DNA from: an uncultured bacterium
GTDB lineage: Bacteria; Cyanobacteriota; Vampirovibrionia; Gastranaerophilales; Gastranaerophilaceae
Direction: 5' to 3'
DNA length: 56,237 nt
NCBI GenBank assembly: GCA_902780525.1
Contig: CACZFL010000017.1
Location: 1-56,237 of the forward strand
Numbering within the stretch: the stretch's first letter is position 1; every line of letters starts with the position of its first letter. The notes under the pieces were generated by a model that saw nothing but the letters and a program-made list of their open reading frames with translations, did not search any database and was not told the DNA's origin. Shown one piece after another: positions 28,926 to 56,237 of the stretch. The position numbers and the translations under genes were made by a program.

Positions 28926-29010
28926 GTCGATGTGGCGGAATCGGTATACGCGCACGTTTGAGGGGCGTGTGGAGAAATCCTTGGGGGTTCAAGTCCCCCC
29001 ATCGACACCA
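28926..29010 (+). tRNA. tRNA-Leu (anticodon GAG)
   Basis: 85 nt with encoded CCA. Acceptor GTCGATG pairs with CATCGAC. The anticodon stem CACGT/GCGTG encloses TTGAGGG with anticodon GAG. The T-arm GGGGGTTCAAGTCCCCC is regular. Unlike the UAA tRNA at 15635, CCA is genomic. Confidence 0.95.
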
Positions 29011-29181
29011 TAAAGCAGATTGAGGCTTGTCCTTTAATCTGCTTTATAGTTTGTATGGGTATGGACGAGAACACCTTTTGGGGTTCAGCGCGAGTGAGCT
29101 GAGGGCGAAGGTCTTTTCTTTGGAAGAAACAGAGTTTCTGAAAAGAAAAACCGTAGACCCGTTAAACGCGAACGAGCAAGA

Positions 29182-29200
29182 CAAGTCCCCCCCATCGACA
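29182..29200 (+). repeat. Copy of the tRNA-Leu 3' end
   Basis: CAAGTCCCCCCCATCGACA followed by ACATAAA, nearly identical to the T-arm/acceptor end of the tRNA at 28992-29014 (CAAGTCCCCCCATCGACA then CCATAAA). It lies 170-190 bases beyond the intact gene, after a GC-rich stretch with a hairpin AGAAAC-AGA-GTTTCT. Confidence 0.75.
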
Positions 29201-29204
29201 ACAT

Positions 29205-29238
29205 AAAAGGAGTAATGACTAAAGTTATTACTCCTTTT
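29205..29238. terminator. Bidirectional terminator
   Basis: 16-bp stem beginning AAAAGGAGTAAT with a tiny loop. It ends the tRNA-Leu(GAG) transcript and the convergent rubrerythrin gene. Confidence 0.88.
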
Positions 29239-29275
29239 ATTTATTGAAAATTTTCAAAAAATAGTTATATTATAT

Positions 29276-29371
29276 TTATCCCTGTTGCTTAAATACACCT
29301 TTAGCACAACCACAAATCGGACATCTGTAGTCATCGGGTTCGTTATCTATTTCACCTTCATATTCAAACCC
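29276..29371 (-). other. Rubredoxin-domain extension beyond in-frame UGA
   Basis: Reading on from the UGA at 29372-29374 in the same frame gives GFEYEGEIDNEPDDYRCPIC, then GCAKGVFKQQG and a TAA. With the preceding YACSV this makes a complete rubredoxin knuckle pair, CSV-UGA-GF and CPICG, in which UGA replaces the second cysteine. The extension shows no frameshift or decay. Directly after the UGA, GGGTTTG can pair with CGAACCC 22 nt later, with AAGGTGA in the loop. Confidence 0.75.
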
Positions 29372-29833
29372 TCAAACAGAACATGCATAGACTTTTTCAC
29401 TACCGTTTACCCCGGCATTTACCCCGGCATATTTATTATAAATATCTTCTGTTTTAATCCCATGATGTTTTTCTTGAAGTGCAAAATATTCAACGCTGTC
29501 CGCTGCTTCGCTTAATCCTTTAACACGAAGCGCATCAGCAAGTTTATTTAGACTGCTTTCCCCTTTATATTCTGCTTTTGATAAACCTTTAACCAGTTTC
29601 CAAAAATCTTTTTCGTTACTCGGATATTTGCCGTTCAATGTAGCATAAAACCCTGCATGATTTACTTCTTGATTACCTATTCCTATAAATTCTTTTGCAA
29701 CTTCTTCCAAACCGAAATCTTGCGCAATTCGAGCCATAGCATAATACATCATACCGCCCATAGCCTCACCTGTTGCTAATTGTGCTATTTGCTTTTCAAA
29801 TTCAGTTCCTTTTGTTTGTCCGTATATGCTCAT
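29372..29833 (-). CDS. Rubrerythrin, interrupted before its rubredoxin domain
   Basis: 153 residues up to the UGA. The four-helix diiron domain is present: EFEKQIAQLATGEAMGGMMY, IGNQEVNHAGFYATL, and YFALQEKHHGIKTEDIY with the second E-x-x-H. Rubrerythrin reduces peroxide in anaerobes. The protein stops at KVYACSV, where a rubredoxin domain should follow; it does follow in frame after a single UGA (29372-29374). TGA is used as a normal stop elsewhere (genes at 35231 and 43983). So the gene is a selenoprotein candidate, a readthrough case, a recent nonsense mutation or a sequence error. AGGAGG ribosome site. Confidence 0.85.
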   Translation of the reverse strand: MSIYGQTKGTEFEKQIAQLATGEAMGGMMYYAMARIAQDFGLEEVAKEFIGIGNQEVNHAGFYATLNGKYPSNEKDFWKLVKGLSKAEYKGESSLNKLADALRVKGLSEAADSVEYFALQEKHHGIKTEDIYNKYAGVNAGVNGSEKVYACSV

Positions 29834-35230: not shown

Positions 35231-36106
35231 ATGTCAAAATCAAATTTAAAGCTTAAACCGGCTGAAAAGAGAAATAATCTTAAAGTCGTTACCAAACCAG
35301 ATATTAAAACCACAAAGTACAGTGATATTAACCTTAATAAGTGGAAAGAATATTCTCACGTAAAAACGGATACTCTTTGGGAATTTCCGACAAGGCTGAA
35401 GGAAGGCGGACATTCTAACGAATATCACGGAAATTATATTCCGCAAATTGCACAGCAGGTTTATGAAAGATTTACAAAAGAAAATGATATTGTTTTAGAC
35501 TTGTTCTTTGGTTCAGGTACATCAGGTATTGAAGCAATAAATATGAAGAGAAGGTGCATAGGTGTTGAGCTTAAAGACGATTTGGCAGAAAAAGTTTCCG
35601 AAAAATTTACACCAAAACAACTCGTAACCGATGTTAATATAATCTGCGGAGATTCAGCAAGTGAAATTGCTAAAGAAAAAATTCAGGCAAGACTTGATGT
35701 TATGGGAAGAAAACAAGCACAATTCCTGATGCTTCATCCACCGTATGATGATATAATCAAGTTTTCTGACAAGAAAGAAGACTTATCTAACTGCTCCTCA
35801 ACAGAAGAGTTCTATGACCTTTTTGAAAAAGTTGCAAAGAACGGATACGACTTGCTTGAAAAAGGAAGATTTGCCTGCCTTATAATCGGTGACAGCTACA
35901 AGAACTCTGAAGTTCAACCGTTAGGCTTTATGTGTATGGCACGTATGATGAACCTCGGATTCAAACTTAAAGGCATTATCGTAAAAGATATTCAGGGTAA
36001 CGAAAGAGCTAAAGGCAAAACAGCTAACCTCTGGAGATACCGCGCACTTGCAGGCGGATTCTATATCTTTAAACACGAATACGTTATGATTTTCCAGAAG
36101 GGCTGA
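35231..36106 (+). CDS. DNA methyltransferase (N4/N6 type)
   Basis: 291 residues. NDIVLDLFFGSGTSGIEAI is the SAM-binding motif I in its DxFxGSGT form, GVELKDD follows, and MLHPPYDDIIKFSD carries the catalytic motif IV as HPPY. Conserved LGFKLKGIIVKDIQGNERAK and WRYRALAGGFYIFKHEY complete the fold. Amino-methylates adenine or cytosine in DNA; target sequence unknown and no cognate nuclease adjoins. The ATG at 35231 is chosen because GGGGAGAG ends 2 nt before it. The gene ends in TGA. Confidence 0.85.
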   Translation: MSKSNLKLKPAEKRNNLKVVTKPDIKTTKYSDINLNKWKEYSHVKTDTLWEFPTRLKEGGHSNEYHGNYIPQIAQQVYERFTKENDIVLDLFFGSGTSGIEAINMKRRCIGVELKDDLAEKVSEKFTPKQLVTDVNIICGDSASEIAKEKIQARLDVMGRKQAQFLMLHPPYDDIIKFSDKKEDLSNCSSTEEFYDLFEKVAKNGYDLLEKGRFACLIIGDSYKNSEVQPLGFMCMARMMNLGFKLKGIIVKDIQGNERAKGKTANLWRYRALAGGFYIFKHEYVMIFQKG

Positions 36107-47266: not shown

Positions 47267-48043
47267 ATGGACCAAATTGTAAGTCAAATATCAATAATGT
47301 TTCCTGATTTTGCCCGCTGGTTTTCGGCAGGTTTTATAGTCTTTGCAAGACTTCTGGGTTTTATAAGATTTGCTCCTGTATTTAACAGAAAAGAAATAGC
47401 GGGCATCGTAAAACTTGCTTTTGCGTTTATTTTAACAATGATTATTACTCCGCTAATTAAACCCGGAAATCCTCCTGCTGACTCATTGTTACTGCTTTTG
47501 GTATTGAATTTTGCCGCAGGCGCTATTATTGGTTATATTGCCCAAATAATTATTCTTGCAATAGAAGCCGGCGGAGATATGATAAATACTCAAATGGGTT
47601 TGTCTTCTGCAATGGTAATGGACCCTTCAACAAACAGCCAGACTTCCATTTTGAGCCGTGTAATAACACTTTTGGGACTTGTAATTTTTATGGAAATCGG
47701 CGGATTTTACTGGATTATTAATGCCTTAATCAGAAGCTTTGAGATATTTCCTATATATGCCGTTGTGATTCCTCTTGAAAAAATTATAAACCTTGATTAC
47801 CTCATAACAACAACCTCAAACGTGCTATATATGGGTTTACAAATCGCCGCTCCAATCCTTTTGGCAACTTTGGGACAGGATATTATACTTGGTGTAATTT
47901 CTAAAACAGCACCACAGGTAAACGTATTTCAACTGTCATTCCTGTTTAAGCCTGTACTTGGAGCTGCAATAATGATATGGATATTACCTATGCTCATCAA
48001 CGTAATATCAGAATTCTTTACAACATATTCAAGCATTTATTAG
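47267..48043 (+). CDS. fliR: Flagellar export gate protein FliR
   Basis: 258 residues with six transmembrane helices. FIVFARLLGFIRFAPVFNRKEI near the N-terminus, GGDMINTQMGLSSAMVMDPSTNS in the middle and LIRSFEIFPI match FliR/SctT. Third gate component after FliP and FliQ. FlhB and FlhA are not in the window. It starts 7 bases after the exported gene's stop, so the cluster is a single operon from 43983 to 48043. Confidence 0.92.
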   Translation: MDQIVSQISIMFPDFARWFSAGFIVFARLLGFIRFAPVFNRKEIAGIVKLAFAFILTMIITPLIKPGNPPADSLLLLLVLNFAAGAIIGYIAQIIILAIEAGGDMINTQMGLSSAMVMDPSTNSQTSILSRVITLLGLVIFMEIGGFYWIINALIRSFEIFPIYAVVIPLEKIINLDYLITTTSNVLYMGLQIAAPILLATLGQDIILGVISKTAPQVNVFQLSFLFKPVLGAAIMIWILPMLINVISEFFTTYSSIY

Positions 48044-48054
48044 GGTAAATATAA

Positions 48055-48555
48055 TTAAGCCTTCTTATCTAATACGGGCTGAATATCGAGTCTGGAAAGA
48101 TTTCTTGAAGCAAGAGCAAACTGTATAGAACCAGGAGGAGATGTGACACCGAGCGATGCTGCAAAACCTGCTGATAGTCCGGCAACAATACCTGCAACAA
48201 CTCCAAGAATTTTTTTTGTTATTGATGTCGATTTTCTCAATAGCACAATCGGTAAAACAGCACCTGCAATACCGCTTGTGGCAACTATACCACGCCCCAG
48301 ATTTCTTCGTTTTGTAATAGCTTCTTCTGAGGAGTTTGCCTTAACAAAAGCCTGTATTTTTGGTGCCGAATCTAAAATCTGCTTATAGGATTCTTCAAAA
48401 GTATCCACCTGTTCGAAGGGAACAGAAAGTTTCCCTGCTTTGTTACCTTCCGAATCAATAACATTATAAAGTACTCTGCCATTGGGTAAATTGCCGGCAC
48501 GAAGAATATTTCCGTAAGAATTTGGTCTTATATTTCCGGATATTGCATTAACCAT
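48055..48555 (-). CDS. Membrane-hairpin protein of unknown function
   Basis: 166 residues. Head of about 85 residues (LPNGRVLYNVIDSEGNKAGK, LSVPFEQVDTFEESYKQIL), then two hydrophobic helices (GIVATSGIAGAVLPIVLL and ILGVVAGIVAGLSAGFAASL) around a short basic loop, and a polar tail. The plan matches the protein at 11160. No family recognised. GAAGG ribosome site. It converges on fliR, 11 bases apart, and borders the prophage. Confidence 0.65.
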   Translation of the reverse strand: MVNAISGNIRPNSYGNILRAGNLPNGRVLYNVIDSEGNKAGKLSVPFEQVDTFEESYKQILDSAPKIQAFVKANSSEEAITKRRNLGRGIVATSGIAGAVLPIVLLRKSTSITKKILGVVAGIVAGLSAGFAASLGVTSPPGSIQFALASRNLSRLDIQPVLDKKA

Positions 48556-48692
48556 AGAAGCACCTTCACTCTATGTTCATTATAAACATTTTTATCAAAA
48601 AAATCAAGATTTTTATATGAATATTTTTTTAATATTTGGATACTATAACAGATTTTGTACATTTTTACTAAATTTTTGTAAAATTTGTGTTC

Positions 48693-49991
48693 TTAACCTT
48701 TTAATCTCCAGTAATATTCAACCAAATAACTTACGGCATCAAACGGATGTTCAAGAAATTTTGCTTCTCTGCTGGTTTTTATCTGCGTATGAGTCGGAAC
48801 ATCAACCATCCCTGTTCCTTCTTTAAAAGAAAGATTATAAATATTATAAAGAATCCATTTACACCTTCTCGGATCAATGAATAAATGTCTTTCTCCGTTT
48901 GAGTTTTTAACCCGTGCATTAAAAGCCGATATACGGTTCATTATAGGTGGGTTATAATTTCTTAGGCGAAATTTTACTTTTTCGTATCCATAGGAAGAAA
49001 GCGCATTTTTAATGATTGCATAATTTGTGTACTCACTCTGAGTACTTCTGTTATCTCCTGATGCATCACCGTTTATTATAATTTCTGATTTATGTCTGGG
49101 GTATCTTCTAATGAACTCTTCGATACATTGCTGGGTTGATGTGTTTTCTATAACGATTTCATCAAAAAAATAAACATCATCTTTGTCCCTGTGTGCAAGA
49201 GCCCAGCACATAGGGTCAACGTTAAAGTCACATGTTAAATGCAGAGGCAGGTTAGGATTATATTTAAGCAATAGTTTATTCTCTTCACCAAAACCTTTAA
49301 CAACAAGTCCTGAAGAATAATCGCCAAACTCACCGAGAACATTTATTCTGTAGTATTCTTCATCAAAACTTTCTTTCATCGATTGAACAAAATGAGGGGG
49401 AAGATAAATGTTATTAGTAGTAGGGGCGATAATCAGACGGTAATTTTCTTTTGAATGTTCGACAAACCTCTGCCAAATCCAGCCTTTATCACCCTGAGGG
49501 TTTGTATGTCCGAAAAGACGATACCTAAAATCCACCCAATTTTTACCCCTGTATGTATTCCTCAATCGTCCTAAAAGCTGCTTAAAAGAAGAATCCGATA
49601 TTTGTGAGGCCTCTTCAACTTCCGCCCAGTGTAAGTTTAGAGACTTAAATTTTTCAGGGTCTTCAAGTGCAGAAAAAAGTATTTCTGAGCCATTAGAAAA
49701 TTTTATTGTTTTATCAATCTTATTATAAGTATAGTCTTTATCCTGAATAAAACCGAGCGCCTCAAGATGGTCTAAGTATGCAACAAGCGTTGTTTTTCTC
49801 ACAAGTTCATATTCTTTAGCGCCGACTAACCCCTTTGAGCCCGGATATTTCATCGCAAGCAAAATCCCCAAAAGAGAACCGCACCAGGTTTTACCGCTCC
49901 CGAAACCGCCCTGATATATGGCTACGTCAAGAGCGTTTGAATGAGGAATCTCTATAAACTCTCTTTGTTTATCCAATAATTTATAAATCAA
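48693..49991 (-). CDS. terL: Phage terminase large subunit
   Basis: 432 residues. The packaging ATPase has Walker A YQGGFGSGKTWCGSL near residue 30 and Walker B LHWAEVEEASQI near 125. The RNase H-like nuclease has TCDFNVDPMCWALA near 250 and IINGDASGDNRSTQ near 300. The start is a TTG with GGGAGG 5 nt upstream. It is the last gene of the minus-strand phage block, whereas TerL often heads the morphogenesis genes; the small subunit is not seen. Confidence 0.93.
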   Translation of the reverse strand: MIYKLLDKQREFIEIPHSNALDVAIYQGGFGSGKTWCGSLLGILLAMKYPGSKGLVGAKEYELVRKTTLVAYLDHLEALGFIQDKDYTYNKIDKTIKFSNGSEILFSALEDPEKFKSLNLHWAEVEEASQISDSSFKQLLGRLRNTYRGKNWVDFRYRLFGHTNPQGDKGWIWQRFVEHSKENYRLIIAPTTNNIYLPPHFVQSMKESFDEEYYRINVLGEFGDYSSGLVVKGFGEENKLLLKYNPNLPLHLTCDFNVDPMCWALAHRDKDDVYFFDEIVIENTSTQQCIEEFIRRYPRHKSEIIINGDASGDNRSTQSEYTNYAIIKNALSSYGYEKVKFRLRNYNPPIMNRISAFNARVKNSNGERHLFIDPRRCKWILYNIYNLSFKEGTGMVDVPTHTQIKTSREAKFLEHPFDAVSYLVEYYWRLKG

Positions 49992-50045
49992 ATTAACCTC
50001 CCTGTATAAAAAACGAGGGATATTATTATCCCCCGTTACATCAAA

Positions 50046-50507
50046 TTATTTACTCCAGCCGCAAAAAATCGTCTGATATAACGCAACCGAATTTTTCATA
50101 AAAAACCGCTTTAAAAAATAAACACCGCTGCTTTCGAGAAGTGCATTAAAAACATCCGTCGAAAAACTTCTGTCATTTTTAATATATTCATGGTGTTCAC
50201 ATAAAACATCATGAATCAGAGCCGGAATAAGAAATCTGTTATCATAATTAGAGCCTATTATACGCCAGAAAAATCTGGGTACGGAAGCTCCGTCATAACA
50301 ATAGCCTTTTGGGATACTAAAAATGTATTCTTCATTTTTTCTTATATCTTTTAAACGTACAGATAATTCTTTCCTGCAAATAAACGGATATTTTTCTATG
50401 ATTCTTTTTTCTTCTTTTGTCATTGAAGGAATATAATATCTGACACCAACCGAAGGCCGTTTATCGAAATATATTCCGGCTTTTGAGTTCAAATACCAAC
50501 AGAACAT
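50046..50507 (-). CDS. DUF1353 phage protein
   Basis: 153 residues. IPKGYCYDGASVPRFFWRII and FLIPALIHDVLCEHH are the DUF1353 signature, with conserved His/Asp suggesting a metal site. Common in phage late regions; function not established. GGGGAG ribosome site. It sits between the tail-fibre-like gene and terL. Confidence 0.85.
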   Translation of the reverse strand: MFCWYLNSKAGIYFDKRPSVGVRYYIPSMTKEEKRIIEKYPFICRKELSVRLKDIRKNEEYIFSIPKGYCYDGASVPRFFWRIIGSNYDNRFLIPALIHDVLCEHHEYIKNDRSFSTDVFNALLESSGVYFLKRFFMKNSVALYQTIFCGWSK

Positions 50508-50510
50508 ATT

Positions 50511-52301
50511 TTAGCTCCCCTGAGAAGTTCTCTGAATAATCAGTTCACGCAGTTTTTCTATCATCCCGTAAATATCACCCATAGGCAGAGTAAAGTCACT
50601 GCTGCCTAGTGTATAATACGGAGCATAACCGAATTGTTCATACATATCTTTTACCCTTTCACGATAGATACTGTCTGCAACCTTACTGCCTGTCTTGCTT
50701 TGCGTGTATGGTATTTTAAGGCAGGGCTGGTAAACGAGGTCACCGTCAACGTAGATTTTGAAAGAGTTGAGGTCAATTTCATTAAGGAACGGATATAAAC
50801 TTCCGTGAATACCTATTGTCATATTTTTAACGGTAGATAACGCTGATATTACCGTATCAGATATAATTGTCGGCGTTGTGGTTGTATAGTTAGCATCACC
50901 TTCTTTTTTGTAAGAGACAGAAGCCAGTTTATTTGTAATATCAGCAGACAAAATTAAATCATATATGCCAACACCCGGTATAGAAAAAGTATTGTCAATA
51001 AAATAAAAAGCGTTGCCACCGTAAATACCGCCCCAAAAAGCAGAACCTCCGTAAGATGATATTACTTGCAGGGTACTCAAATTATTAAGATTTGCTTTTA
51101 TGTGAATATCAATTTTTTTTGCACTTGTAAAATCTATACTTTTTTGAATATAATTACTACTGCTAAACCCACTCGCAATCCCATCCGCGCTAATCGTAGG
51201 TGTACCAACAACAGTATAATCATCAGGCTTAATTGTATCTATACCTGTTTTATTACCTGAGAATAAAATTTTACCGTCATTAATAATTTCAACGTATTTC
51301 AAATCCCAGTCTGCATTTGGAGACATCCAAGGTACTCCGCCAAAAATAATCGGATTTGAGCAAGAATATGCCGTACTTGTATTACTGAATATTTCCGTAC
51401 CGTCACAGGTTATCTTATAAGTTCCTGTACTTGCTGTATAACTAACGACAAAATTATGAAATACTCCTGAGGTGATTACAGAAGAAATTCTACCAAAACT
51501 ACCACCTATAACCCATTGTAATACAAAATTTGTACCATTAATATTGTTTACAATAATCTGGTTACTATTGTCATCACCGTTAAATCCGATAAAACAAGGA
51601 TTTGCACCACTTGAAGATGTGTGGTTATCACGAAATCTTAATTTAATAGTCCAGTCTTTGCTTCCGTCAAGGACAACACCTGTGCTGACACGTTGGGTAT
51701 ATGCTGTGGCAGTTAATATCCCGTCATCCGTAATAGTAGGTGAGCCTGATACCGTAAACTTAGAACGGTCAAAGGTTGAATGGGCATACCTCCTGATATC
51801 ATTAAGCACCTCCTCGTCAGATGAAACAGAGCCGGTTAACAGCCCCTTGGATTGATTAAGATGATCTGTGCTGACTCTGTTATCAACAGTTCTTTGAGCC
51901 TCTTGTGCATAATCATGAGCCTGATTAACATAACTCTGTCCGTTTGTTCTTATACTGCTTATTGCCGCGTTTAAAGAACTGTTCAGACTGCTTTGAATAG
52001 AGTTCTTTTGTGTGTTTAAATCGTTTATTGCCAAACTTTTTGCAGCCGATAGTCCGGAAATAGATGTATTGTAAGAGTTTGTTATTCCATCTGTTGCCTG
52101 AGCATAAAAAAGCTCCAACCCTGTTTTATAATCCTCTATATCATTTTTCCATCCTCTAGCAGCTTCTTCGCTTTGAGCTGCCTGCAGGGCACTTGCAGCA
52201 GCAGAGTTTTTGCTGTTTTCCAGTTCATCAATAAATAGAGGCTGAACATCAACATACAACCTCAAATCATCGTCTTCCATATATAAATTGTTTTGCGCCA
52301 T
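50511..52301 (-). CDS. Phage tail-fibre-like protein with tandem LamG-like domains
   Basis: 596 residues. The first 170 are a helical, Ala/Ser/Asn-rich stalk (SAAASALQAAQSEEAARGW). Two concanavalin/LamG-like beta domains follow, about 186-370 (FTVSGSPTITDDGI ... GSKDWTIKLRFRDN) and 372-560 (YTVVGTPTISADGI ... SIDFTSAKKIDIHIKANL), each opening with the same TxxGxPTIxxDGI phrase. The C-terminal segment (YRERVKDMYEQFGYAPYYTL) may be a trimerisation part. Probably the receptor-binding fibre. Its ATG overlaps the previous stop as TAATG. Confidence 0.78.
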   Translation of the reverse strand: MAQNNLYMEDDDLRLYVDVQPLFIDELENSKNSAAASALQAAQSEEAARGWKNDIEDYKTGLELFYAQATDGITNSYNTSISGLSAAKSLAINDLNTQKNSIQSSLNSSLNAAISSIRTNGQSYVNQAHDYAQEAQRTVDNRVSTDHLNQSKGLLTGSVSSDEEVLNDIRRYAHSTFDRSKFTVSGSPTITDDGILTATAYTQRVSTGVVLDGSKDWTIKLRFRDNHTSSSGANPCFIGFNGDDNSNQIIVNNINGTNFVLQWVIGGSFGRISSVITSGVFHNFVVSYTASTGTYKITCDGTEIFSNTSTAYSCSNPIIFGGVPWMSPNADWDLKYVEIINDGKILFSGNKTGIDTIKPDDYTVVGTPTISADGIASGFSSSNYIQKSIDFTSAKKIDIHIKANLNNLSTLQVISSYGGSAFWGGIYGGNAFYFIDNTFSIPGVGIYDLILSADITNKLASVSYKKEGDANYTTTTPTIISDTVISALSTVKNMTIGIHGSLYPFLNEIDLNSFKIYVDGDLVYQPCLKIPYTQSKTGSKVADSIYRERVKDMYEQFGYAPYYTLGSSDFTLPMGDIYGMIEKLRELIIQRTSQGS

Positions 52302-52672
52302 TAGTCACCCTCTACTTTCTTCGGATAAACAGTAATGGTATTTACTCCTCCGATTTCTTCCGATCCGACGGTTAACGTTTCCTCTCTCTGAGTTTCGCTG
52401 TCACAGATTTTTAAACCGTAATAATAAACCGCACATGGCTCATCTTTTTTAACGGTAAACCTATCGGTATAGTCTCCCGTAAGCTGAAATATTACGTATG
52501 ATTCGTTATTACTGTCTACGGACAACTCGCTTCCCACAGGTTTTCTGTTTTTATCCTGAACAGCGAAATACACGGTAAAATTTTTATTCGGGTTTAGTCC
52601 TCTTATGGCTATAAGACCGCTATCACCCTGTATCATTGAAATATTGCCGTTTTTATCAATTTTAAATGCCAT
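52301..52672 (-). CDS. Small phage structural protein
   Basis: 123 residues, beta-rich: MIQGDSGLIAIRGLNPNKN, FTVYFAVQDKNRKPVG, CAVYYYGLKICDSETQREET. The layout resembles N-terminal domains of baseplate upper proteins. The stop codon shares one base with the fibre gene's ATG and the start overlaps the upstream gene by 11 bases, so all three are translationally coupled. Confidence 0.65.
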   Translation of the reverse strand: MAFKIDKNGNISMIQGDSGLIAIRGLNPNKNFTVYFAVQDKNRKPVGSELSVDSNNESYVIFQLTGDYTDRFTVKKDEPCAVYYYGLKICDSETQREETLTVGSEEIGGVNTITVYPKKVEGD

Positions 52673-53159
52673 TGTTGACTTCCCCGCTTTCTGTTCCCCT
52701 AAAGTCTTTTACTGTCTGAAACAGACATTCCTGAACAAACTCAGATGTTGCTTTTTTGTTTTCCTGCAAAGATTCCATATATTCATTATCAGGTTCCCTT
52801 GTAAAATCAGGGGTTTTGTAAGTGATTATTTTCACATTCTGCCCAATTTCCATGCCGGCTTTTATCGGCAATAATAAATCAGCAAGAAAATCCTTCACAG
52901 ATCCGTCTTTCATTGTCACTTTTCGTCTTATCCAGCCAAGCGAAGTCAGAAAGAAAGATTTTTCAAACTCTTCTTTTCTTTTTTGTGATTTTACTTCCTC
53001 TATATTATCAACAAGTGCAATCTGCCCGTCTTTTATAACAAAAAATTCTTTGTTTTCTTCAAAAGATTTAAGTGTGCAGATATTTGTAAACAGACAGTCC
53101 GCAGCATACGCATAATCCGCATAATCGTATATATTGTTATTTTTTATTCTGTAAAACAT
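52662..53159 (-). CDS. Phage protein of unknown function
   Basis: 165 residues. Not recognised with certainty; SLGWIRRKVTMKDGSVKDFLADLLLPIKAG in the middle is reminiscent of phage tail-associated proteins of the DUF4376 kind. No membrane segment. Overlaps its downstream neighbour by 11 bases. Confidence 0.6.
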   Translation of the reverse strand: MFYRIKNNNIYDYADYAYAADCLFTNICTLKSFEENKEFFVIKDGQIALVDNIEEVKSQKRKEEFEKSFFLTSLGWIRRKVTMKDGSVKDFLADLLLPIKAGMEIGQNVKIITYKTPDFTREPDNEYMESLQENKKATSEFVQECLFQTVKDFRGTESGEVNNGI

Positions 53160-53162
53160 TTT

Positions 53163-53669
53163 TTAATCTCCTTTCATAGGATAAAAGTAATATGAACCTG
53201 ATGTTCTGCCGGCAGTAACAACATCACCGGCACTTACTCTGAATACCGAGCCTGAATAAACACCGTATCCGCCTGAGTATCCGCAATGCCCGTGAACAAT
53301 TTTTTCGTTTACATAGACATAACTCATATAATCCATACCGTTTACACCTGCATATACATATCCATCAGCTTCTGCTGTATAAGGCAAGGTTATGCCTACA
53401 CCTCTTGAATAATCAGGTGCGTTATTCTGTGAGGTAAAATCTTCCCTCAAGTCTTCCAAATCATTTTCCAAATCATCAATATCCGAAGATAAACCTGATA
53501 TCTGCTCAGAAAAAGAACTGTTCATTCCCGAAATATTTGAATATATGCTTGTAGAAGTTGAAACAAGGTTATTTGCTACTGTTGTAACCCTGTCGTCTAA
53601 GTATTCAAAGTTATCGTTCATTGTTTCCGAAGACGCCAAAGAACCGTATTCTATATTTATTAAAGGCAT
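53163..53669 (-). CDS. Phage tail-associated protein with coiled coil
   Basis: 168 residues. An N-terminal segment (INIEYGSLASSETMNDNFEYL) is followed by a coiled coil (SGLSSDIDDLENDLEDLRED) and a Gly/Tyr-rich beta domain (GYVYAGVNGMDYMSYVYV, CGYSGGYGVYSGSVFRVSAG). The build suggests a trimeric fibre or tip. Gaps of 1 to 3 bases to its neighbours. Confidence 0.65.
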   Translation of the reverse strand: MPLINIEYGSLASSETMNDNFEYLDDRVTTVANNLVSTSTSIYSNISGMNSSFSEQISGLSSDIDDLENDLEDLREDFTSQNNAPDYSRGVGITLPYTAEADGYVYAGVNGMDYMSYVYVNEKIVHGHCGYSGGYGVYSGSVFRVSAGDVVTAGRTSGSYYFYPMKGD

Positions 53670-53670
53670 T

Positions 53671-53910
53671 TTATCCCCTTTCTTTAATTAATGTGTCATA
53701 AATTTTATCAATCTTTTTATTAATATCAGTTAACTGCTCTTTAACAATCTGAAATTCTGATTTTGTAATATAAATTTTTGATATTTCAGATAGTATTTCT
53801 CTGTGTGTTTGCTCGAGCATCTGAGGTGTTACAAAAAGGTTGTACTGAAAAACTATTGCAAGCCCTAAAACAAGCAGAGGTGCGTACTTATATAAAAATT
53901 CCCTGTCCAT
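53671..53910 (-). CDS. Small phage membrane protein, holin-like
   Basis: 79 residues. One N-terminal transmembrane helix (YAPLLVLGLAIVFQYNLFV) and a coiled coil (EFQIVKEQLTDINKKIDKIY). The size and plan fit holin- or spanin-like lysis proteins, but nothing else confirms it. No endolysin gene is in the window. Confidence 0.55.
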   Translation of the reverse strand: MDREFLYKYAPLLVLGLAIVFQYNLFVTPQMLEQTHREILSEISKIYITKSEFQIVKEQLTDINKKIDKIYDTLIKERG

Positions 53911-53919
53911 AGAACCTCC

Positions 53920-54537
53920 TTAAACAGATGTAGTAATGGCTGATATTATTACAGGGAGAATGTCGTTTAGAATATCCCTGGTGCTGTTTTCTCCCGATGT
54001 TGTTGAAGTATATTTTGTTGCATTTCCGCTGCTTGCTTTGAGGGAATGATTCTGCATATTCATCAGATAATTTGCTCCGAGCATATAATAATTTAGAAGA
54101 TTAGATAAAGTCTTTGACGTTTCTGATTGAGAGTTTGCCAGCAATTCATTTGCAAAATTTGAAACAGAAGCAACATTTTGATTTAACAGATTTTTGTATA
54201 AATCATTCGCCTGTGAAGAGCGAAGCATATTCCTGTTTGAAAGAGTACTTATAATATCGTTTTCAAGACTTTTTCGTGTTTGTCCTGAAAGAGTATCTGC
54301 AAAAGCCTGCAATTTGGCTTTATTTTGTGTGGAATTCAAGTTCGGCTGTAAATATTCATTTAGCAGAGAATCTATATTATTATTTACAAAATTATAAACA
54401 GAATTTAGCGCTGTACCTTTCTGGAACCCTGCTAATGTACCTCTATTATCTGTTTTTGAATAAGCATACGGATTTGATGTTGTTGTATTTCCGTAAACTG
54501 TACTTGAGACGGTTGATTTATTGGAAGAGCTTCCCAT
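53920..54537 (-). CDS. Phage virion protein, possibly ejection-related
   Basis: 205 residues, low-complexity Ser/Asn/Thr start (SSSNKSTVSSTVYGNTTTS), then helical (KLQAFADTLSGQTRKSLEND, SNRNMLRSSQANDLYKNLL), with a hydrophobic C-terminus (ILNDILPVIISAITTSV). Position next to the tail protein in a podovirus-like block suggests an internal or ejected virion protein; not recognised by family. Confidence 0.5.
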   Translation of the reverse strand: MGSSSNKSTVSSTVYGNTTTSNPYAYSKTDNRGTLAGFQKGTALNSVYNFVNNNIDSLLNEYLQPNLNSTQNKAKLQAFADTLSGQTRKSLENDIISTLSNRNMLRSSQANDLYKNLLNQNVASVSNFANELLANSQSETSKTLSNLLNYYMLGANYLMNMQNHSLKASSGNATKYTSTTSGENSTRDILNDILPVIISAITTSV

Positions 54538-54552
54538 TTTTACTCCTTTCTT

Positions 54553-56088
54553 TTATATCGTTTTAATCTTAATTTTCTCAAACTCTATGTTTTTAATACA
54601 GAAATCATCCCCCCGATTTTTTGTAAACAAAGATATCTGAAGAGTTCTAAAAAACGCTGTAAGCAATTTTTTGACCGAGTTTAGTTCTTTGAACGGAAAA
54701 TAAAAACTATCCCAGTACCCTTTATCGAAATATAATAAACTGTTATACGTTTTTCCTTTTATGTATCTGGTTTTAAGAGTAGATGCGTCATAGTTTTTAA
54801 TGTATTCGACATAAAAACTATTGTTGTAATACATATCCAGAGTTACCTTTGGAGGATAATTAACTATCTTAATAGCGTTTTCGCTGCCGAGATTAAACGG
54901 CGTACATTTGTAAAAGGAAGGTATGTACTCACCGTCAAAAGTATCTGAGGCGTATTCAAGATAAATTTTTTTACCAGCAGAATACAATTTTCCTTTAATA
55001 ATACCAAAACAGTTAATTTTTTGTGACTTTCTTTTTACCCAGGTTTTTCTGAGGTAATCATATATCATAATAACCGAATATTCAGAATCCTTATCGGGAA
55101 TCAAAAACCAAACTTCATTTCTGTCAGATGTAACAACGGATAATGTTTTTATAAACTCAGCATCACTAAAAGATATATTACACAGTTCATCCTGTACATC
55201 AAGAGCTATGTTTTCACCTAATGTTTTATCTCCATTAACCGCCTGACGAAAAGAATATACACCCTTTTTCGTATCGTCATAAAAATAAAGCTCGGTAGAA
55301 TGAAATACCATTGCATTATTACCTGAACACCCCCCGGGGAATTCCATAGTTTTTGAAAATACTCCCTCTGTTTCAGTAACAATACATGAGGAATCTTTAT
55401 GAAAAACCGCGATTGCTCCAAGATAAGGAATTACTGCGGTAATGTTTTTTACAAACTCAATATACCCTGCAGATGTAACTATACCGGCATCAGAAGTTGA
55501 AAAATCATAAATATCCTCCTGAACGGAATACCACAGAACCTGATTTGAAAAAATCCACAATCTTCCGGCATAAACAACTAACCCTAATCCTTTTACGGTA
55601 CGTCCATCAGTATCAGTCAGATTCATCATTATAACTTCATCAAGTTCTCCATTTACGTATTTGCCCAATTCGATCGATAAAACTTCTTCACCGTTAGAAA
55701 AAACAAACAAATCACTCCAGCCCTGAGAGACATCACAGGCAGATGATTTTCCTGTTACCGATAAGTTTGACACTTTTTCTGTAAGAATATCCGCATCTTC
55801 GTTAAAAAGATATATTTTCCCTTCAGATTCACTTTCCGTATGAACGAAGAAATACTTTTCACCCTTTTGAACACTCTCAAAAATATTAATTACGGTTTCA
55901 TCTTGAGGAATAGTATCACAAACCGCAATATTACCTTTTGATGTGCGTATTCCGACACCGGAGTTTACACCTGTTGAAAAAAGTTCGACATTCTGTATAT
56001 CAGAGGCAGTAACAAGCGACGAAGAATATATTGAAGACGTTCTGTTTATTCCGGAAAAATTATTACAGATTAAACTTATTCTTTGCAT
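54553..56088 (-). CDS. Podovirus tail stabilisation-like protein
   Basis: 511 residues, beta-rich throughout. The central part (YLGAIAVFHKDSSCIVTETE, FHSTELYFYDDTKKGVYSF, WFLIPDKDSEYSVIMIYDYL) looks like the beta-propeller of P22 gp10-type tail/stabilisation proteins. First gene of the minus-strand block, preceded by an AT-rich divergent promoter region. Its role would be closing the portal and connecting the tail; family assignment is from pattern only. Confidence 0.6.
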   Translation of the reverse strand: MQRISLICNNFSGINRTSSIYSSSLVTASDIQNVELFSTGVNSGVGIRTSKGNIAVCDTIPQDETVINIFESVQKGEKYFFVHTESESEGKIYLFNEDADILTEKVSNLSVTGKSSACDVSQGWSDLFVFSNGEEVLSIELGKYVNGELDEVIMMNLTDTDGRTVKGLGLVVYAGRLWIFSNQVLWYSVQEDIYDFSTSDAGIVTSAGYIEFVKNITAVIPYLGAIAVFHKDSSCIVTETEGVFSKTMEFPGGCSGNNAMVFHSTELYFYDDTKKGVYSFRQAVNGDKTLGENIALDVQDELCNISFSDAEFIKTLSVVTSDRNEVWFLIPDKDSEYSVIMIYDYLRKTWVKRKSQKINCFGIIKGKLYSAGKKIYLEYASDTFDGEYIPSFYKCTPFNLGSENAIKIVNYPPKVTLDMYYNNSFYVEYIKNYDASTLKTRYIKGKTYNSLLYFDKGYWDSFYFPFKELNSVKKLLTAFFRTLQISLFTKNRGDDFCIKNIEFEKIKIKTI

Positions 56089-56237
56089 TTAACCTCCTTT
56101 CTTTTTATTAATTTTTTTTGCATAAATCCCGTTTTTTTAAATTTAATTTTACATTTCTTAACAATTTGGACTAAAAAAGGCAATTTTTTATTTTTTATAT
56201 ACTTTATATATATGTAAGCGATATTTAAGGAGAGTAA
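56089..56237 (+). promoter_or_regulatory. Divergent promoter region and ribosome site for the next gene
   Basis: Very AT-rich, with TATACTTTATATATATG-like sequence and, in the last 12 bases, AAGGAGAG as a Shine-Dalgarno. A plus-strand phage gene should start within a few bases beyond the window. Confidence 0.6.

Follow-up and report, generated by a model that had tools for sequence, protein, structure and literature searches.

A UGA codon at a metal-binding cysteine position of a Gastranaerophilales rubrerythrin gene: probable recent nonsense mutation rather than selenocysteine

Does an in-frame UGA that stands exactly where a rubrerythrin should carry a metal-binding cysteine specify selenocysteine, or is it an ordinary stop? 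The question is raised by a contig (CACZFL010000017.1) from an uncultured bacterium of the Gastranaerophilaceae, a lineage known from animal guts. This stretch of 56,237 nucleotides, hereafter the window, is contig 17 of a draft genome of 2.09 Mb in 35 contigs that is 98.6% complete.

The stop codon, the frame and the predicted product

The rubrerythrin gene lies on the minus strand at positions 29833-29276, with its start codon ATG at 29833-29831 and an AGGAGG sequence upstream. The in-frame TGA is codon 154 (29374-29372, minus strand) and occupies the position of the second Cys of the first rubredoxin knuckle (C-S-V-TGA-G-F), the frame reading ...KVYACSV-TGA-GFEYEGEIDNEPDDYRCPICGCAKGVFKQQG-TAA. 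A UGA at a metal-binding Cys, followed by an intact frame to a TAA at 29276, is what the first-pass annotation had claimed from the sequence, and both points were confirmed: the TGA is followed by 31 open codons (29279-29371, minus strand) that encode the remainder of the rubredoxin-like domain, CPICGC included, and then by the TAA that closes the ancestral frame (29278-29276, minus strand). The spacing of 20 residues given for CPICG holds when counted from the first Cys, and the motif starts 17 residues past the TGA. Three of the four rubredoxin Cys positions are still present in the DNA; the ORF itself stops at codon 153. Apart from the observed change, 91 one-step stops are possible at other codons of this gene, four of them at other Cys codons, which means that 5 of the 92 possible one-step stops hit a metal Cys exactly. 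By this count, a nonsense change landing on a Cys would be uncommon, yet unremarkable after the fact.

The 153 codons before the TGA (29375-29833, minus strand) encode the diiron domain and a linker. A profile search matched this 153-aa form to PF02915 with 35.4 bits (cut-off 22.8). The diiron domain of a two-domain rubrerythrin is thus present; a four-Cys rubredoxin-like domain is absent from the ORF. With the stop read through, the rubredoxin-like tail scores 19.1 bits where Pfam requires 26.5, and the NCBIfam rubrerythrin equivalog is missed by a wide margin (38.9, cut-off 200). Among 38 aligned sequences, E92, E121, H59 and H124 are invariant and E23 and E56 nearly so; we take these residues to be the iron ligands. 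Compared with a classical two-domain rubrerythrin, the locus is thus alike in its diiron domain, in the rubredoxin-like tail encoded after the stop and in its full-form close homologues, but differs in that the second knuckle Cys codon is TGA and the tail lies outside the ORF.

Structure prediction gave the 153-aa form four helices (12-39, 43-66, 74-104 and 108-135) arranged as a bundle, with 120 of 153 residues at pLDDT of at least 90 and residues 141-153 disordered, and its best solved structure matches were sulerythrin (TM-score 0.60, E 4.7e-4). According to excerpts of the published accounts, sulerythrin is a rubrerythrin without rubredoxin domain (PMC5114695), rubrerythrins of this kind are functional elsewhere (PMC5114695; PMC3317640), and one of them, ferriperoxin, is a working peroxidase (PMC3317640). 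As far as the model goes, the likely product here has 153 residues, lacks the rubredoxin domain and keeps the predicted sulerythrin-like four-helix bundle; such a short form could retain the diiron site, with another protein perhaps serving as its reductant. No 153-aa entry was present among the best 120 of 259 matches to this form in a protein database that is clustered at 90% and so is uninformative on the occurrence of a short allele elsewhere.

Other features surround the stop. The linker between both domains contains a 12-bp tandem repeat coding AGVNAGVN (29406-29430, minus strand). On the 3' side of the TAA there is a strong hairpin with 18-nt arms (29203-29240, assigned to neither strand; z = -3.96 for 29190-29275), which a terminator scan did not flag. 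Further on, a tRNA-Leu(GAG) gene occupies 28926-29010, and a 20-nt direct repeat (28995-29014 and 29188-29207, 95% identical, 193 bp apart) copies its 3' end, a pattern like that at the border of an integrated element. The window from about 48000 to 56237 holds minus-strand ORFs that resemble, by eye, prophage terminase and structural genes. Another tRNA gene, tRNA-Leu(CAG), adjoins three 165-nt copies, 97-98% alike and with a spacing of 137 bp, at positions 542-980 of L118 (genome G000, contig C14).

Decoding of UGA and the search for selenocysteine

The genome encodes RF2, and its prfB gene carries a CTT-TGA-C site after a Shine-Dalgarno-like AAGGAG, which is the arrangement of RF2 autoregulation by UGA. 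Three of the 120 listed relatives of this RF2 protein carry an organism name, two of them Candidatus Gastranaerophilales and the third Acinetobacter, which we regard as a mislabel. The stops of 59 long, largely non-overlapping ORFs of the window, the rubrerythrin ORF included, are TAA in 38 cases, TAG in 16 and TGA in 5. The first-pass statement that UGA is a normal stop elsewhere was borne out, since TGA is indeed the last codon of the ORFs with ends at 36106 and 45083; moreover, each of the four further long ORFs in the window with a TGA stop has a Pfam match, in one case with nearly full-length coverage. On the prfB frameshift site and the TGA ends of other genes, we rejected a genome-wide code change. 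The genome yielded 40 tRNA matches from a scoring that covered 150 of 173 candidates (there is, for instance, no tRNA-His among the typed ones), and none of them has a UCA anticodon; two of the 40 escaped ARAGORN and were assigned by eye to Ser-GCT and Val-TAC. A pattern search for a UCA tRNA gave 20 matches against 26 for a control pattern, and none of them folded as a tRNA. These searches lend no support to a suppressor tRNA. A bypass by frameshifting was discarded as well, as a +1 shift at GTT-TGA runs into a TAG after eight codons (by eye).

For selenocysteine, the first-pass annotation had pointed to selA, selB, selC and selD as the genes to look for, and had named their absence, together with Cys in all close relatives and no readthrough peptide, as the outcome that would count against this option. 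This is largely what we obtained. SelA had no match in the source genome, and the best matches of SelB (97.8 bits, cut-off 242), SelD (33.5 bits, cut-off 125) and tRNA-Sec (43.7 bits, cut-off 47) all fell below their cut-offs, the last one being typed as tRNA-Ser; the weak SelB and SelD matches probably stem from other translation GTPases and from a protein of the ThiL type. SelA was detected in one of 57 neighbourhood genomes, and this sole carrier (L124 in genome G056, 450.9 bits) belongs to the same class and to another order, so that selenocysteine may be used close by within the class.

A stem after the UGA had been likened to a bacterial SECIS. The pairing of GGGUUUG with CGAACCC is indeed present (29336-29371, minus strand), with 7 of 7 pairs and AAGGUGA in the loop, but its proposed role did not hold. 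The fold after the UGA has a z of -1.18, with 23 of 200 shuffles equally good or better, and the stem recurs among 44 Cys-coding copies, with all seven pairs in 4 of the 44 and at least five of the seven in 38 of them, as the GF and NEP codons lie opposite one another. The stem carries no signal tied to UGA, and we judge it to be a coding by-product. On the machinery search, the codon survey described below and this stem control, we rejected selenocysteine: the 98.6% complete draft gave no sel match above cut-off, no UGA-specific SECIS stem was found, and none of the 44 other distinct copies has TGA at this codon.

In the literature, one Melainabacteria protein was named with Sec and no other species there had any (PMC9529120, excerpted text), and Cyanobacteria appeared to lack Sec use (PMC9312934, excerpted text); the word 'rubrerythrin' is absent from the latter paper. 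Judged by titles and the starts of abstracts, no paper on a seleno-rubrerythrin was present among the matches listed for rubrerythrin and selenocysteine, and a search pairing Gastranaerophilales with rubrerythrin returned none.

The same codon in relatives and damage across the order

An alignment of homologues at the UGA codon, also suggested at the outset, gave a uniform answer. In 44 other distinct copies, a count that includes some distant rubrerythrins and omits identical sequences, the equivalent of codon 154 is TGC in 38 and TGT in 6, and TGA in none. At the protein level, Cys was present in 119 of 120 homologous proteins (the best 120 of 349), and the lone exception, P0047, ends in the linker and is without rubredoxin domain. 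The intact protein P0002 is 96% identical, has Cys at the codon and is identical over the last 31 residues. The linker with the 12-bp repeat differs in length in P0002, and it is there that P0047 ends. The closest relatives by contig are mainly from ruminant gut assemblies (we take RUG to denote rumen genomes). No relative of the gene was found in a scan of viral contigs, and viral spread was discarded.

Comparison of the stretch after the TGA with 14 relatives detected no frameshift and no further stop. When this copy was compared with the relatives, the tail exceeded the diiron part in its ratio of nonsynonymous to silent changes in 12 of 14 cases; the relatives compared with one another showed the same in 73 of 91, so the ratio says nothing on this copy. 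Erosion after the stop was accordingly rejected, the tail being no more changed than it is among relatives. The TGA is either young or an error.

Across the order the gene is patchy, with 29 copies in 28 of 383 genomes. Five of the 29 copies are damaged, and three of these have internal stops, our own copy included. L144 (genome G286) has a stop at codon 15 and otherwise shares 98.9% identity with P0120, an intact public protein; on this evidence it would be a second very young nonsense allele, or an error. L148 has a stop at codon 79, a Trp position, L150 is frameshifted, and L149 has lost its 3' end together with the rubredoxin domain. Outside the 383-genome set, L101 is without the first 88 codons (1529-1813) though its contig continues upstream, and in L103 (3001-3140) the initial 37 residues run straight into the final dozen, through either an internal deletion in the gene or a join made in assembly. 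The damage count leaves out L102, a planctomycete record whose copy is frameshifted.

The genome's own reverse rubrerythrin, which is of similar length, served as a control and was searched in the same 383 genomes, of which 358 had a match. No internal stop was present among the best 150 of the more than 358 copies, four rows flagged '1 TAA' proving to be normal gene ends; the genomes with weak best matches G328, G278, G315 and G381 fell outside this check and could hold broken reverse rubrerythrins. Internal stops in 3 of 29 copies against 0 of these 150 best-scoring control copies gave p = 0.0039, and p = 0.024 without our own copy. When the rate was set at the control's 95% upper bound (2%), the probability was 0.019 for 3 of 29 and 0.105 for 2 of 28, with our own copy left out. 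Since base errors should hit the two genes equally, we favour real mutations under weak constraint. This is a statistical argument that draws on the better-scoring control copies, and it could be weakened if accessory genes are covered less deeply.

Dispensability of the gene is suggested by the 5 damaged copies among 29 and by its paralogues, and the stop is absent from its close relatives (the 44 copies surveyed). Besides this gene, the genome has a reverse rubrerythrin (L125), a further rubrerythrin (L126) and a rubredoxin (L127). The rubredoxin gene lies near an ORF that resembles, by eye, a flavodiiron protein. In Clostridioides difficile, two reverse rubrerythrins are mutually redundant, according to the excerpted text of PMC7482061. 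None of seven window neighbours had a match at any of the 27 relatives' loci (E 1e-6), where the flanks extend a few kb at most, as expected for a patchy gene that comes and goes without shared neighbours.

Weighing the explanations

Among the options listed by the first-pass annotation, the best fit is a recent nonsense mutation, given that the gene has been broken independently elsewhere in the order; selenocysteine is not supported, and no mechanism for programmed readthrough was found. We therefore consider that the UGA is probably an ordinary stop that arose by recent mutation in a patchy and probably redundant rubrerythrin gene. Ribosomes would terminate at codon 154 and be released by RF2, and the product would be a 153-residue diiron protein lacking the rubredoxin domain from which the diiron site would receive electrons. 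This protein would be idle, or would be reduced by the separate rubredoxin of the genome, and the reverse rubrerythrin and the other rubrerythrin would cover the loss. As in other nonsense alleles or early pseudogenes, there is a single stop, the ribosome-binding sequence and the downstream hairpin are intact, close relatives are intact and independent breaks occur elsewhere; what differs here is that the stop happens to coincide with a metal-binding Cys and spares the whole catalytic domain. Points against this explanation are the exact position of the stop, the lack of any decay beyond it, the confinement of the control to its best 150 copies and the probability of 0.105 at the control's upper bound with our own copy left out. 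A base-call or assembly error, with Cys as the true codon and the gene intact, is the main rival, one that we regard as clearly less probable. The genome is a draft in 35 contigs, the intact P0002 has an identical tail, the stretch past the TGA shows no erosion, and accessory genes may be covered less deeply and be more error-prone. Against such an error stands the absence of internal stops from the best 150 control copies of a gene of similar length in the same genomes, when the rubrerythrin gene has three internal stops in 29 copies, plus a frameshift and a truncation.

The stop may alternatively have been kept because a sulerythrin-like form without rubredoxin domain works with a separate rubredoxin, which we consider improbable. 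The 153-aa form is predicted to fold, with sulerythrin as its best solved match; L149 and P0047 also end near the domain border; a separate rubredoxin gene is present; and domain-less rubrerythrins work elsewhere (excerpts of PMC5114695 and PMC3317640). The damage in L144, L148, L150, L101 and L103, however, costs the diiron domain and points to plain decay, and the intact tail leaves little time for selection. The likeness to sulerythrin and ferriperoxin lies in predicted fold and length, whereas those proteins form stable lineages and ferriperoxin is a tested enzyme (excerpted text of PMC3317640); here the short form is seen in one genome, and intact relatives keep the domain. It is equally improbable that the rubrerythrin of gut Gastranaerophilales repeatedly sheds its rubredoxin domain (our stop, L149 and P0047) to become a sulerythrin-like peroxidase driven by free rubredoxin; if this were true, domain loss by a stop codon would have been caught in the act. 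Low-level or programmed readthrough of the UGA, giving a short and a long form, would account for the intact downstream frame and is very unlikely, since the TGA occurs in one genome only among the copies read and no UCA tRNA was found. Near-cognate insertion of Trp at the UGA would, in addition, ruin the rubredoxin metal site. Selenocysteine at the rubredoxin site, for which a UGA at a Cys position with a stem after it had spoken, is the least credible of all, as no machinery was found, SelA occurs in a single neighbour genome outside the order and the stem is common to Cys copies.

The case is thus most likely an ordinary one, in which a recent mutation has damaged a gene that is probably spare. 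It does away with a tempting selenoprotein call in a lineage in which no SelA was found (1 of 57 genomes, outside the order). It also offers a cheap test of recoding against decay, in which the same codon and gene are followed across the order with a sister gene as the error control. That an accessory peroxide-defence gene has been broken repeatedly is, finally, a small observation on redundancy in gut anaerobes.
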